Shown: piece by piece, positions 5,703 to 39,633 of the stretch | How the letters are laid out: every line of letters starts with the position of its first letter | How positions within the stretch are numbered: position 1 is the stretch's first letter | Assembly: GCF_024220515.1 (NCBI RefSeq) | Contig: NZ_JAMXOT010000080.1 | Span: 1-41,141, forward strand | Length of the DNA: 41,141 nt | Direction of reading: 5' to 3' | Source: Oscillatoria sp. HE19RPO | GTDB taxonomy: Bacteria; Cyanobacteriota; Cyanobacteriia; Cyanobacteriales; Laspinemataceae | The notes under the pieces: generated by a model | Databases searched by the model: none | The model's input: only the letters and a program-made list of their open reading frames with translations | Told to the model about the DNA's origin: nothing | Position numbers and translations under genes: made by a program

Positions 5703-6164
5703 ATGAAACTTACCTATCGTGGGATTAGCTATGAATCCAACCCCGTTCCCACCCCCAACAAGACCCCTCTGGAACTAACAGGTCAATATCGGGGCGTACA
5801 CTGGCGCTTAAGCAATGCCCTCACGTATCCGATGGAAGAACCACCTGCTGAACTGATGTATCGCGGTGCCACCTATTCTACAGGTACTGCCCAGGTGGTT
5901 GTCAAAGAAAGCTATGAAACTCCCGCCTGCATTCCCACCTCCCCTGTGGATCAATTATGGGTCGCGAATTTAGAAGAAAAAGCTCGGGCTTTGGCCCTTT
6001 CCAATGGCCGTTCAATTAAGAAACGGCAACAGGCTATGCTCGGTCGAGTGGCGGCTGAAGTGGGTCTATCTAGCGATATTTCCAACTACTGGAATCGCAT
6101 TCAAGGCAAAGTTCATCCGAGTTTTCGAGCTTCCTATTCCCGCAGTTCGGTTTCCTTAAGTTAA
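5703..6164 (+). CDS. gifB: Glutamine synthetase inactivating factor, IF17-like, with N-terminal DUF4278
   Basis: A small protein expected to bind and inhibit glutamine synthetase when nitrogen is plentiful. Residues 1-60 are DUF4278-like (MKLTYRGISYESN; LTGQYRGVHWRL; ELMYRGATY appears twice-like). Residues ~98-153 resemble the IF7/IF17 inhibitory region: SIKKRQQAMLGRVAAEVGL, YWNRIQGKVHPSFRASYSRS, ending SVSLS, with many basic residues. The length of 153 is near that of Synechocystis IF17 (149). AGGAG at 5686-5690 precedes the ATG by 12 bp. The upstream glutamine riboswitch and NtcA-type box support the assignment independently. A terminator follows at 6315. No glutamine synthetase gene is in the window. 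Confidence 0.85.
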   Translation: MKLTYRGISYESNPVPTPNKTPLELTGQYRGVHWRLSNALTYPMEEPPAELMYRGATYSTGTAQVVVKESYETPACIPTSPVDQLWVANLEEKARALALSNGRSIKKRQQAMLGRVAAEVGLSSDISNYWNRIQGKVHPSFRASYSRSSVSLS

Positions 6165-6189
6165 TCAAAGATTCCTGAACTAAATTCAC

Positions 6190-6287
6190 AGGAATTACCC
6201 ATATTTTGATAATCCACCCCAAATGTAGAGGCGATTCGCGAATCGCCTCTACATTTGGGTTTTTATTTTCAAGATGGGGTAAGTCCT
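6190..6287. mobile_element. R1 MITE-like element, copy 1 (98 bp)
   Basis: Diverged terminal repeats AGGAATTACCCA and TGGGGTAAGTCCT enclose the perfect palindrome ATGTAGAGGCG...CGCCTCTACAT with centre ATTCGCGAAT. Its length equals copies 14266-14363 and 35001-35098. Confidence 0.75.
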
Positions 6288-6314
6288 GATTCAACAAGTT
6301 TTAACGGTTTTAGC

Positions 6315-6336
6315 CACCCCAAAAGGGGTGTTTTTT
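6315..6336 (+). terminator. Intrinsic terminator for gifB
   Basis: CACCCC-AAAA-GGGGTG followed by six T's. It is 150 bp after the gifB stop, with an R1 element in between. Confidence 0.85.
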
Positions 6337-6361
6337 GCGCCATCCAGTTCAAGATAAAATC

Positions 6362-7702
6362 TCAAGAGAAAGAGGGTAAAAAGCTGACAATCCCCGGAAA
6401 TACAATCAACAAAATCAAGACAAACACTTGAATCAAAATAAAGGGGATAACCCCGCGATAAATATCCCCCGTTGTGACTTCCGGTGGAGCAATCCCGCGC
6501 AGATAAAACAAGGCAAATCCAAAGGGGGGAGTTAGAAAAGAAGTTTGGAGGTTTGCGCCTAAAATGACCCCAAACCAGACTAAATCTAAACCTAACGTTT
6601 GGGCGACGGGGACAAACAGGGGAATCACGATAAAGGCAATTTCAAAGAAATCGATAAAGAATCCCAGGATGAAAACCGTCAGCATACAAACCAGCAAAAA
6701 CCCAGTGGTTTCTCCTGGCAGGTTGGTGAGTAAATCAAACATGAAACTATCCCCATGTAAACCTCGGAAAATTAGGCTAAATGCGGTTGATCCCACCAGG
6801 ATAAACATCACCATTGTGGTGGTCCGGAGGGTGATATCACAGACCCTTTGCAGGGCTGTCCAATTGAGTTGACGGTTCGCCCCGGCTAGGGCGAGGGCAC
6901 CCAATGCACCGACGGCCCCGGCTTCGGTGGGGGTGGCAATTCCAAAGAAGATGCTACCGAGAACGAGTAAAATTAACAGAGTCGGCGGAATCATGACGGT
7001 GACGACCCGAATCAATAATTTTGTCCCGGTCATGGTGCGAACTTCTGCGGGCAAGGCGGGGGCTAAATCAGGGCGCAAAAAGGCAATAATGACAACGTGC
7101 AAAGCAAAGGCTCCGGCCATCATTAATCCGGGGATTAATGACCCGATAAATAAATCCCCAACGGAAATCCCTAGCTGATCTCCAAGCACTACTAATACAA
7201 CGGAAGGGGGGATAATTTGTCCGAGAGTTCCCGAGGCGGCGATGACTCCGGTTGCCAGTTGTTTGTTATAGCCATATCGCAACATAATCGGTAGAGAAAT
7301 TAATCCCATCGCCACGACTGTTGCAGCGACAACGCCGGTGGTGGCGGCTAATAAGGCCCCGACTAAGACGACAGCTAGGGCTAATCCCCCGCGCAAACGC
7401 CCGAACAGAATCCCCATTGTTTCTAAGAGGTTTTCGGCAATGCCGGATTTTTCCAGCATCGCTCCCATAAAAATAAAGTAGGGAATGGCGAGGAGGGTAT
7501 AGTTTTCCATGATGCCAAAGATTCGCAAGGGCATCGCATTTAGGAGGACTGGATCAAAAGCACCCAAAGCCATCCCGAGTAGACCAAATAGGATGGCGAC
7601 GCCACCGAGAGAAAAGGCGACGGGATAGCCAAAGGATAAGAGGAATAAGGCCCCGGCAAACATGGCAGGGCCTAGCCATTGATAGTCATAGCTCAGATTC
7701 AT
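6362..7702 (-). CDS. TRAP transporter large permease subunit (DctM family)
   Basis: Twelve-span-type membrane permease of a tripartite ATP-independent periplasmic transporter, importing organic acids with sodium. The 446-residue protein has repeated hydrophobic segments and the family blocks AIPYFIFMGAMLEKSGIAENLLE, LVGALLAATTGVVAATVVAMG, GTLGQIIPPSVVLVVLGDQLG and FGIATPTEAGAVGALGALALA. The ATG at 7702 (MNLSYDYQWLG) is preferred to an upstream frame start at 7744, which would add a hydrophilic leader; it gives a 17-bp overlap with dctQ, typical of translational coupling. The substrate is unknown: cyanobacterial relatives move glutamate (GtrB) or 2-oxoacids. No DctP binding protein is in the window. 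Confidence 0.93.
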   Translation of the reverse strand: MNLSYDYQWLGPAMFAGALFLLSFGYPVAFSLGGVAILFGLLGMALGAFDPVLLNAMPLRIFGIMENYTLLAIPYFIFMGAMLEKSGIAENLLETMGILFGRLRGGLALAVVLVGALLAATTGVVAATVVAMGLISLPIMLRYGYNKQLATGVIAASGTLGQIIPPSVVLVVLGDQLGISVGDLFIGSLIPGLMMAGAFALHVVIIAFLRPDLAPALPAEVRTMTGTKLLIRVVTVMIPPTLLILLVLGSIFFGIATPTEAGAVGALGALALAGANRQLNWTALQRVCDITLRTTTMVMFILVGSTAFSLIFRGLHGDSFMFDLLTNLPGETTGFLLVCMLTVFILGFFIDFFEIAFIVIPLFVPVAQTLGLDLVWFGVILGANLQTSFLTPPFGFALFYLRGIAPPEVTTGDIYRGVIPFILIQVFVLILLIVFPGIVSFLPSFS

Positions 7703-8240
7703 GATGTTCCTGATGGGGGGGTAGCCAGCCTTGGAAAATCGCAAACTTTTTAATGGCTTCGGAAATTCCTTGGAGAATGAGCAGGAAGAAGCTGATTAGA
7801 ATAACAGCTTTAATGGGGTAGCGGGGTAATCCACCGGGGTCTGGGGAAATTTCGCCGATCGCCCAAGAGGCGGCGATGGTATTCCAAGAGAAAAATATCA
7901 CCAAAATCGAAAAGGGGATCAGGAATAACAGGGTGCCGATTAAGTCTAATAAGGCTTTCCGCTTGGGTGACCAACTGCTATAAAAAACATCAACCCGAAC
8001 GTGCTCGTCATGTTTGAGTGCATAAGCTGCACCTAAGAGGAAAATCAGGTCGAAAATGTACCATTGGGTCTCGATTAGGGCATTGGAGGTCAAATTTTGA
8101 CCCACTGCACGTCCGAGATAGCGACCGATGACGTTCCAGACGCCAACGAGGACCATCAGGAGGACGAGCCCACTCATGAACCGTCCGATATATTCATTCA
8201 GGCGATCGATCAGGGTGGAGAGGCGTAATAGTTTATCCAA
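7686..8240 (-). CDS. TRAP transporter small permease subunit (DctQ family)
   Basis: Four-span membrane subunit that pairs with the large permease in the inner membrane. The 184-residue protein has spans near 22-45, 58-78, 98-122 and 145-165. It carries the family motif region WNVIGRYLGRAVGQN, TQWYIFDLIFLLGAAYALKHDEHVRVDVFY with its hallmark HVRVDV, and PDPGGLPRYPIKAVI. It is upstream of, and overlaps, the large-subunit gene, so the two are cotranscribed. The binding protein that gives substrate specificity is absent here and may be encoded elsewhere or just be orphaned. It belongs to the mannitol/chloroaromatic-like branch by overall look. Confidence 0.9.
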   Translation of the reverse strand: MDKLLRLSTLIDRLNEYIGRFMSGLVLLMVLVGVWNVIGRYLGRAVGQNLTSNALIETQWYIFDLIFLLGAAYALKHDEHVRVDVFYSSWSPKRKALLDLIGTLLFLIPFSILVIFFSWNTIAASWAIGEISPDPGGLPRYPIKAVILISFFLLILQGISEAIKKFAIFQGWLPPHQEHHESEL

Positions 8241-11043: not shown

Positions 11044-11267
11044 TTGACGGGGGTTTGAACCCTAGCCCTGTCAAGGTGTATTTGTAGGGGCTTCGAGGCT
11101 TGCGCCCACCTAGGGGCGATTCGCGAATCGCCCCTAGGTTCCATCACTCTTTTTCGTCATTCAATTGATTACCAATTGAGGGCCTGCACATTGCGCCCCT
11201 AGAAAATCACAATTTTTCGTCATTAAATTTACTACATTGACAGGGCTAGGGTTCTAACCCCCGTCAA
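11044..11267. terminator. Terminator-like hairpin arms split by an R2 element
   Basis: TTGACGGGGGTT (11044-11055) pairs with AACCCCCGTCAA (11256-11267), followed by TCGGGTTATTTTTT. Together the arms look like a former shared terminator of convergent genes. The R2 element occupies the space between the arms. Confidence 0.6.
11063..11248. mobile_element. R2 MITE-like element, copy 1 (186 bp, composite)
   Basis: Ends are TAGCCCTGTCAAGGTG and (minus strand) TAGCCCTGTCAATGTA. Twelve-base flanks GGGTTTGAACCC and GGGTTCTAACCC could be a target duplication with two mismatches. The interior holds a perfect 30-bp palindrome (11109-11138) with centre ATTCGCGAAT, the core type of R1, plus an R3-like piece (TTGCGCCCCTA). 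Confidence 0.7.
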
Positions 11268-14250: not shown

Positions 14251-14265
14251 GTGGGAATATTCAAC

Positions 14266-14363
14266 ATGAGTTACGCCTTTTTAAAGAAAAAACCCTAAAT
14301 GTAGAGGCGATTCGCGAATCGCCTCTACATTTAGGGTTTAAGGTTATGGATTGCGTAAGTCCT
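14266..14363. mobile_element. R1 MITE-like element, copy 2 (98 bp)
   Basis: The imperfect left repeat ATGAGTTACGCC (9 of 12 match to AGGACTTACGCA) and right TTGCGTAAGTCCT enclose the same palindromic core (ATGTAGAGGCG...CGCCTCTACAT). It starts 15 bp after the phosphoesterase stop. Confidence 0.75.
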
Positions 14364-14422
14364 GGGCGGATTAGTTAACCTTAGAATCCTGTGTTTCTGG
14401 TACAGAAACCGGGGTTCTTGTC

Positions 14423-25614: not shown

Positions 25615-25696
25615 CTAAAAAAAGCGGGCCTCAATCAAGAAGCCAACTGGGAGGGGGATGCGATCGCCCATCTGAAGCAACCGGGAGAAGTTGGGA

Positions 25697-26137
25697 TTAG
25701 GATGGGGGAGATTCGGGGGATGGGGGGGATAGGGGGGATAGGGGAGATTCGGAAGATAGGGGAGATTCGGAAGATAGGGGAGATTCGGGAGATTCGGAAG
25801 ATTCGGAAGATGGGGGGGATGGGGGGGATGAGGGAGAGGCGGAAGATGGGGTAAATGAGGGTGAAGGGTTTTCCTCTTTGACTCTGCGGATGGGGAGATT
25901 AGCAATTAAGGCTGTGGCACGCTGGTTGTTTTCCAGGGAAATATCCAACCCTTCCAGGTCGAGTTCGACGTAGCGAGAGACCACCTGAAGTATTTCCTTT
26001 CGCATCGCCTCGACGGTATCCGGGTCGAGGTCAGCGCGATCGTGAGCCAGCACCAGTTTTAGACGACGCTTGACCTCCTCGCGACTATTGTCATCGCCAG
26101 TTCGAGGGAAAAGTCTTTCGATAAGTTCGCTAATCAT
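25697..26137 (-). CDS. minE: Cell-division topological specificity factor MinE with Ser/Pro tail
   Basis: Drives pole-to-pole oscillation of MinCD by stimulating MinD ATPase at the membrane. The core (about 1-88) is typical: [16 protein letters not shown] membrane-binding start, [18 protein letters not shown] anti-MinCD helix, then [20 protein letters not shown] and [20 protein letters not shown] topological domain. Residues 89-146 are an unusual low-complexity tail, repeating SESPLS units encoded by an 18-bp tandem repeat. Typical MinE proteins end near residue 90-100. Last gene of minC-minD-minE, 33 bp after minD. Confidence 0.93.
25700..25850 (-). repeat. Purine-strand-biased microsatellite within minE
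   Basis: The 18-bp unit GGGGAGATTCGGAAGATA (plus strand) repeats exactly at 25741-25758 and 25759-25776, with 5- to 9-bp variants on either side (GGGGGGATA, GATTCGGAA). The plus strand is almost all purine apart from TTC, so non-B structure is possible. Unit-number changes of 18 bp keep the minE frame, other changes do not. Confidence 0.8.
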
Positions 26138-34875: not shown

Positions 34876-35000
34876 GCGACTATTTCTTAAACTTATTTTA
34901 TTGACTATAATTTACAATTATTCGGGGATAACTTAAAAGGGAAGAAGGGTGATGTCGCGAGTCTAAATTATGACGCCAATAGAATTGACATCAGTGGGAC

Positions 35001-35098
35001 AGGACTTACGCAATCGTTAACATTAAACCCTAAATGTAGAGGCGATTCGCGAATCGCCTCTACATTTAGGGGCAATTTTCAAAATCTGCGTAAGTCCT
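35001..35098. mobile_element. R1 MITE-like element, best copy (98 bp)
   Basis: Perfect 12-bp terminal repeats AGGACTTACGCA and TGCGTAAGTCCT. The 32-bp palindrome ATGTAGAGGCG-ATTCGCGAAT-CGCCTCTACAT sits centrally. AC flanks both ends, a possible 2-bp duplication. Confidence 0.85.
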
Positions 35099-35140
35099 AC
35101 GGGAGCATCTTGCGCCGGACTACAGATCCGGCCCACAGGA

Positions 35141-36997: not shown

Positions 36998-37080
36998 AGC
37001 GAGGGGACAAGTCCCGAATACTTTTCTCACATTTATTCAGGAAATAGATGATTAAATCTAGGACCAACGAAAATAGGGAC

Positions 37081-37315
37081 AGGATTTACCCAGAGGTTGA
37101 AAACTAGCCCTGTCAAGGTGCATTGATTTGTCGGAGTAAATGCTTGCGCCCTCCGGAGGGCGCAAGCATTTACTCCGACAAGAAACAATGATTTTTCGTC
37201 ATTAAATTTACCACCTTGACAGGGCTAGATGTTGAAAAACCCCCTTAAAATGTAGAGGCGATTCGCGAATCGCCTCTACATTTTAGGAATTAACTTTAAA
37301 AATTGCGTAAGTTCT
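37081..37315. mobile_element. R1 element interrupted by R2
   Basis: AGGATTTACCCA at 37081 matches the R1 left end and TTGCGTAAGTTCT ends at 37315. R2 (37105-37227) lies inside, flanked by GAGGTTGAAAAC (37093-37104) and GATGTTGAAAAAC (37228-37240). Removing R2 and one flank copy leaves 99 bp, close to the standard 98. Confidence 0.8.
37105..37227. mobile_element. R2 MITE-like element, copy 2 (123 bp), nested
   Basis: Exact ends TAGCCCTGTCAAGGTG and CACCTTGACAGGGCTA. The middle is a perfect 54-bp palindrome, 37128-37181 (arm begins TTGTCGGAGTAAATGCTTGC). It is followed by a 'gatttttcgtcattaaattt' spacer also present in the other R2 copies. Confidence 0.85.
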
Positions 37316-37430
37316 GTAGGGGGAGATAACCCGATCTTTGGGGGCAGGATATTAAGACTGCCTCTAAGACATCGTTGTTTCTATTTCAGTCTTGAAATCA
37401 AAATCATTTAACCAAAATAAACGCAAGAAC

Positions 37431-39483: not shown

Positions 39484-39633
39484 TGACCCGGTGAAGGGTA
39501 GCCCTGTCAAGGTGTATTTGTCGGAGTAAATGCTTGCGCCCTCCGGAGGGCGCAAGCATTTACTCCGACATGACATAACGATTTTTTGTCATTAAATTTA
39601 TCACCAATTCAGGGCTACCTCTTCACCGGGTCA
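39484..39633. terminator. Terminator-like hairpin arms split by an R2 element
   Basis: TGACCCGGTGAAG (39484-39496) and CTTCACCGGGTCA (39621-39633) are perfect 13-bp arms. They are followed by GAATTTATATTTT. The R2 element sits between them, 47 bp after the debranching-enzyme stop. Confidence 0.65.
39499..39617. mobile_element. R2 MITE-like element, copy 3 (119 bp)
   Basis: Left end TAGCCCTGTCAAGGTG; right end (minus strand) TAGCCCTGAATTGGTG, diverged after eight bases. Perfect 52-bp palindrome at 39519-39570. Flanks are inverted, not direct repeats, so no target duplication is visible here. Confidence 0.8.

Follow-up and report, generated by a model that had tools for sequence, protein, structure and literature searches.

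A gene-less R2 element nested in an older R1 element of an Oscillatoria genome, and its probable mobilisation by an IS4-like transposase

The split R1 and its neighbours

The stretch of DNA analysed here (the window, 41,141 bp from Oscillatoria sp. HE19RPO) makes up the entire contig C30 of a draft genome (7.67 Mb, 511 contigs) that we call the own genome (G000). Two short repeats, R1 and R2, recur within it, and at one locus an R2 lies inside an R1. The features are as follows.

6189–6288, plus strand: intact R1, 100 bp, from repeat comparison
11063–11248, minus strand: third R2, 186 bp, flanked by GGGTTTGAACCC and GGGTTCTAACCC; its empty site is seen in G001 and G007
14265–14364, plus strand: intact R1, 100 bp, from repeat comparison
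35000–35099, plus strand: intact R1, 100 bp, from repeat comparison
37074–37079, no strand: left copy, TAGGGA, of the imperfect repeat flanking the split R1; 5/6 against 37317–37322
37080–37104, plus strand: left part of the split R1, opening with the terminal repeat CAGGATTTACCCA; aligned to the three intact R1
37093–37104, no strand: GAGGTTGAAAAC, the target duplication left of R2; aligns to the R1 columns that the right copy also covers
37105–37227, minus strand: R2, a MITE of 123 bp with an inner palindrome and perfect 16-bp terminal inverted repeats, TAGCCCTGTCAAGGTG
within 37105–37227, minus strand: intron site GTAAATTTAATGACGAA/AAATCATTG, empty here and occupied in related genomes
37228–37240, no strand: GATGTTGAAAAAC, the target duplication right of R2; aligns where the left copy does in R1
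37228–37316, plus strand: right part of the split R1, with the palindrome AAATGTAGAGGCGATTCGCGAATCGCCTCTACATTT and the terminal repeat TGCGTAAGTTCTG; aligned to intact R1
37317–37322, no strand: right copy, TAGGGG, of the imperfect repeat flanking the split R1; 5/6 against the left copy
39499–39617, minus strand: second R2, with one degenerate end and flanks that are inverted, not direct; in the midst of a palindrome

Alignment of the split R1 with the intact copies (R1a, R1b and R1c) placed both flanks of R2 on identical R1 columns, within the left arm of R1, and thus one of the two flanks is a target duplication. An earlier note on this DNA had described R2 as splitting R1 between GAGGTTGAAAAC and GATGTTGAAAAAC, and its coordinates for R2 are exact. 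Its description of R1 was right in location and in the presence of three intact copies, and needed adjustment in size: the split element, placed by the note at 37081–37315, extends slightly wider (CAGGATTTACCCA from 37080, TGCGTAAGTTCTG up to 37316), and each intact copy measures 100 bp between terminal repeats, not 98 bp. The split R1 is 237 bp; excision of R2 and one flank restores a near-R1 length, as the note had stated, although we measured 102 bp (12 bases removed) or 101 bp (13 bases removed) in place of its estimate of about 99 bp. The two flanks agree at 10/12 positions ungapped, or at 12/13 with one gap placed by eye, so either R2 did not insert recently or its flank copies have since mutated. 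Since the usual duplication in this family is 12 bp, the 12–13 bp reported earlier as a mark of R2 movement, which the flanks fit, is best read as 12 bp with later mutation. The claimed relative age also follows, because R1 is the one that is split: R1 came first and R2 second. The nested insertion is confirmed.

The R2 copies at 11063 and 39499 each lie centrally in a palindrome resembling a terminator hairpin (putative). R1 itself has 13-bp inverted ends. When its flanks were compared at 5 bp, three of five copies in G015 were perfect and two matched at 2/5 (one of these at 7/7 when 7 bp were compared), and five distinct copies from G000 and G004 gave two at 4/5 and three at 1–3/5. No pair of R1-type ends 0.7–3 kb apart was found around 72 DDE_Tnp_1 and IS1634-model loci. 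Exact copies of the R1-type end AGGACTTACGCA number 860 in G010, 536 in G015 and 83 in the own genome, and one 1,796-bp stretch of G015 (L165, contig C30, approximately 5936–7731) contains an apparent gene between two R1-type ends and is a candidate R1 parent. A purine-rich repeat with a period of 9 bases occupies positions 25683–25874 of the window.

The R2 family and its insertion sites

R2 combines the features by which a MITE is recognised: a length of 123 bp, no transposase gene, terminal inverted repeats, a duplication, and a full-length relative with the same ends. The same element is recorded in Phormidium pseudopriestleyi FRX01, Oscillatoria MAG S11.Bin022 and Laspinema palackyanum D2a. 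The pattern TAGCCCTGTCAAGG has 148 matches in the own genome with at most one mismatch, compared to one for the pattern read backwards; G004 holds 152 exact 16-bp R2 ends, and G005 holds 71 R2-type ends. Among the matches listed, we drew 56 R2-type end pairs from places fetched in the own genome and G004. Five of them hold introns, one is the full-length element, and two (L137 and L156) are copies of a single insertion; the set excludes the window copy at 39499, with its degenerate second end, and also L017 and L027, where ends are doubled or do not match. The intron-free pairs examined span 95–383 bp. L137 in G004 and L156 in the own genome (C332) occupy an identical insertion site; one of the two elements measures 189 bp and its counterpart 100 bp.

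The earlier note had predicted direct flanks of 12–13 bp for R2 copies in general, and this was borne out: the best duplication length was 12 bp in 44 of the 56 pairs (three of them weak, 6–8/12), 11 bp in nine, and 13, 10 and 9 bp in one each. Comparing flanks at 11–13 bp, we found an identity of 83% or more in 48 pairs, of 90% or more in 40, and complete identity in 23; among 2,000 mispaired flanks serving as a control, the corresponding shares were 2%, 0.45% and 0.1%. Flanks therefore vary between R2 copies yet match each other within one copy, and a family generally devoid of direct flanks is not what we found. Pairs lacking a convincing duplication were L134 (3/12, none), L146 (6/12), and L077 and L151 (8/12 each). 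The TA found at both ends suggested that R2 might be of Tc1/IS630 type and duplicate TA; this was rejected, since the T and A belong to the inverted ends and the repeats outside them are 11–12 bp.

Target choice was profiled by script: out of 55 distinct insertions, we used the 40 whose two flanks agree at 10/12 positions or better, each with both of its copies. The first target base is G (equally, with strands pooled, the last is C) in 79%, and the middle consists of T followed by A; 5.3 of the 12 positions are self-complementary, compared to 2.8 in shuffles (maximum 3.9 in 500). R2 prefers symmetrical targets, with a first G, a last C and a T-rich then A-rich middle, as in intergenic terminator-like palindromes.

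Related genomes, where the earlier note had proposed to look for an uninterrupted R1 at the same locus, did not provide one: the R1 without R2 was not found in any of seven same-genus genomes (G001–G007), and five of them (G002, G003, G004, G006 and G007) lack both elements there. At the position corresponding to 37074–37079, the R1-free sister genomes read TTGGGG, TTGGGC or similar, and GGGGAG in G004. G001 carries, a few bases off, an R1-type element that lacks R2 and whose left end has a different palindrome; it is probably a separate insertion. G005 has the left part of R1, the same 12-base flank and approximately the first 53 bases of R2 before its contig ends, and 34/34 bases preceding R2 are identical to the window; among the matches listed for G005, no junction of the R1 right half with the downstream gene was present. 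The pre-insertion site at the nested locus, an R1 without R2, is one that we infer, and most simply R1, and later R2, inserted in this genus ahead of the split between the own genome and G005. Within this same R2 insertion, one inner palindrome arm differs between the window and G005 (L042), GTCGGAGTAAATGC versus GTAGGGGCGCAATGC; the two arms in the window match mutually, as if co-changed, and the other arm in G005 lies past the contig end.

An empty site with a single restored flank, which the earlier note had also named as informative, was observed directly for another R2, that at 11063–11248. In both G001 and G007 the 12 bases that stand twice in the window stand once (TTGACGGGGGTTTGAACCCCCGTCAA in G001), and the two query halves share a 12-base overlap. 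This clean empty site is present in two of the seven sister genomes; G005 and G006 carry other insertions with the same start point, beginning with TAGCCCTGTCAACGG and TAGCCCTATCAAGG and having TAGCCC-type ends; G002, G003 and G004 show differences of other kinds. At the 39499–39617 site, the palindrome is uninterrupted in G006.

A candidate parent and competing explanations

An autonomous relative with R2 ends, for which the earlier note had suggested a search, is present in the same genome. This full-length element, on contig C508, is 1,959 bp long, carries at both ends TAGCCCTGTCAAGGTG, the exact 16 bp of R2, encloses a single 468-codon open frame, and is bordered by a perfect 12/12 duplication, GTTTTATCGCCC. 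Among 18 DDE_Tnp_1 loci of the own genome, it is the only one closely bounded by R2-type ends on both sides, and no such end pair was seen at the 30 loci fetched from 61 DDE_Tnp_1 matches listed in six relatives. The C508 transposase scores 40.3 bits against DDE_Tnp_1 and 95.8 bits against the NCBIfam IS4 model NF033592, below its cut-off of 115. Its residues D133, D203 and E310, picked by eye on the basis of local motifs, leave spacers of 69 and 106 and thus fall within the pattern D(60-110)D(100-150)E, and the 12-bp duplication corresponds to about one helix turn, as expected of IS4. The signature Y(2)R(3)E(6)K is incomplete: YRNRRTIENLFQVVT keeps Y, R and E, and has T in place of K, and we therefore term the element IS4-like and do not file it as an IS4 member.

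Matches to the C508 transposase were found in one of eight genomes within the genus (the own genome only) and in five genomes of other genera, among 39 searched in all. The homologue in G010 is 52% identical over residues 1–404; its element has the ends CAGCCCTTTCAACGTG and a duplication matching at 12/12. At a distance of 136 bases lies a 179-bp element that shares these ends and is likewise bordered by a 12/12 duplication. The relative in G037 has clear ends, CAGCCCTTTCAAGGTG, and no duplication was seen around it; only one such end was seen in G030. G004 and G005 have no transposase match despite their 152 and 71 R2-type ends, so the transposase was lost there, or another enzyme acts. Two other candidates for R2 parents, R2-bounded elements of 2.7 kb and 5.2 kb in G004, were rejected, as their contents are group II introns. 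C508 is the likely source of R2.

The mechanism that we propose builds on direct observations, namely the common ends, the duplications, the full-length element and the empty site of a sister R2 copy. R2 would be a gene-less MITE with IS4-like insertion-sequence ends; the transposase from the full-length C508 copy elsewhere in the genome would bind the shared 16-bp ends, excise R2, and join it to a target via staggered cuts approximately 12 bp apart, and the staggered joining would leave a 12-bp, at times 11-bp, duplication. By this route, one R2 would have jumped into the left arm of the older R1 in this window. The role of the C508 transposase as mover of the window R2 and the cut-and-paste chemistry are presumed from established knowledge of DDE elements. 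Collectively, we hold it very probable that R2 is a MITE mobilised in trans by a C508-type IS4-like transposase and inserted into an older R1.

Matching flanks could in principle belong to a longer R2 with direct sub-terminal repeats and no target duplication, and the flanks of many copies are indeed rich in GGG-TT-AA-CCC, which may resemble common element sequence. We give this explanation almost no credence: the flanks are copy-specific, mispaired flanks match in just 2%, the flanks of the window R2 align to R1 copies that have no R2, and the empty sites of G001 and G007 retain a single 12-bp copy for the R2 at 11063–11248. It also appears very improbable that the nested structure reflects recombination of dispersed repeats or an assembly join, with R2 never having moved as a unit. 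Although the draft is in 511 contigs, several of which, among the matches listed, end at most 140 bases from an R2-type end, the left junction with its 34 identical bases before R2 is shared by G005, the flanks of the nested R2 fit a duplication, and the two sequences neighbouring the nested pair adjoin in G001, G002, G003, G004, G006 and G007.

Mobilisation of R2 by a transposase other than that of C508 would account for G004 and G005, where many R2 ends occur and no match to the C508 transposase was found, and the own genome offers 18 DDE_Tnp_1 matches to choose from. Nevertheless, we consider it unlikely, given that C508 alone among those 18 loci has close matches to R2 ends on both sides, that the 30 loci fetched from relatives out of 61 listed yielded no such pair, and that C508 and R2 agree in both end sequence and duplication length.

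Group II introns at R2-type sites and known systems

Five long R2-bounded elements of G004 contain an RT-like open frame of 585–599 codons (named by eye) together with Rfam group II intron matches. The 5′ part of the intron matched 15 times in G004, 11 in G005, four in the own genome, and twice each in G001 and G010; the remaining 14 of the 19 genomes gave no match. All 15 G004 copies (L076–L080 and L210–L218) lie at one position in R2-type sequence, preceded by TGACGAA in 14 and by TGACCCC in one (L077, a 69%-identical type), and followed by AAAT in all. Eleven of them are single introns with R2 ends on both sides, and in ten of these the duplication matches at 11 or more positions (L077, 8/12); L080 (C1:4051546–4056780) consists of two same-direction introns in one R2 with a perfect 12-bp duplication outside, and L213 and L216 each miss one recognisable R2 end. 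The site is kept, with at most three mismatches, in 39 of 45 intron-free R2 copies. Six copies in G005 (L180, L183, L185, L187, L189 and L195) occupy R2-type sites, and four related introns lie elsewhere; no intron at an R2 site was seen in the own genome, whose short contigs could hide one.

A hairpin loop of the intron, which by its position we take to be EBS1, reads TTCGTC in five copies, complementary at 6/6 bases to GACGAA, and TTCGTA in nine, at 5/6. The guide-loop match of L076 is 6/6. In L219, a relative inserted at an unrelated site, this loop is GTATGT and matches the exon ACATAC at 6/6. For the L077 exon, GACCCC, the first 520 intron bases offer no partner of 6 or 5 bases, and the introns of four further relatives, L220, L221, L172 and L177, have no 6-base match to their exons (L221 has four bases, in the same loop). 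The inner sequences vary among intron-bearing R2 copies, which points to repeated homing more than to the copying of a single composite. The arrangement in the sister genome G004 suggests, from sequence, that the R2-type MITE, by spreading, provides a group II intron with homing sites. We lean towards two-tier parasitism, with some reserve, in which an IS4-like transposase spreads the gene-less R2, and each R2 bearing the motif serves as a homing site for an intron with a putative guide loop (TTCGTC or TTCGTA) tuned to GACGAA within R2. If this is true, the intron stays in non-essential intergenic DNA and gains sites with each MITE transposition.

The nested pair represents a clean, relatively datable transposition, and a single genus displays much of the chain: a likely parent, the MITE, duplications, an empty site and palindromic targets. 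The introns at R2-type sites raise the testable question of whether group II introns spread by becoming specialised on MITEs, which offer no gene to harm and continually generate sites. MITE-in-MITE nesting and MITE insertion driven by an IS4-like transposase are ordinary biology; an intron specialised on the R2 MITE is the less ordinary part, for specialists to follow. Nezha elements are reportedly short, with no gene, inverted ends and many copies, and R2 is likened to them by description, its own likely parent being IS4-like. Nezha is referenced as a MITE of cyanobacteria in the excerpted text of PMC10969869.

Compared to the IS4 family as outlined in the excerpted sections of PMC2266710, C508 shares the single-ORF DDE transposase, the arrangement D-69-D-106-E, Y(2)R(3)E and a duplication of about one helix turn, and differs in the replacement of K by T and in an NCBIfam score below the cut-off. 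The same sections give target duplications of 10–13 bp for the IS4 subgroup and 8–10 bp for IS4Sa. The IS4Sa end pattern CA------T fits the ends of C508 relatives, whereas in this genus the first base is T, not C, and the 12-bp duplication exceeds 8–10 bp (PMC2266710, same sections).

Among the open-licence papers listed, we recognised none on the R2 MITE or on introns that home into R2. The Thiomargarita 'MITEtron' likewise associates an intron with a MITE, but in the reverse order, a MITE within a group I intron according to the excerpt of PMC4853749, as opposed to group II introns within MITEs here. In Thermosynechococcus (T. elongatus), three group II introns reside at a conserved site in ISEL1, an IS200-family element, as described in the excerpt of PMC2882425. 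Both cases involve group II introns of one family at a conserved position within a transposable element; ISEL1, of the IS200 family, has three copies, and the R2-type MITEs here have 15, with a putative guide-loop match. The ISEL1 introns (PMC2882425) are the nearest precedent that we found for a MITE-homing intron.
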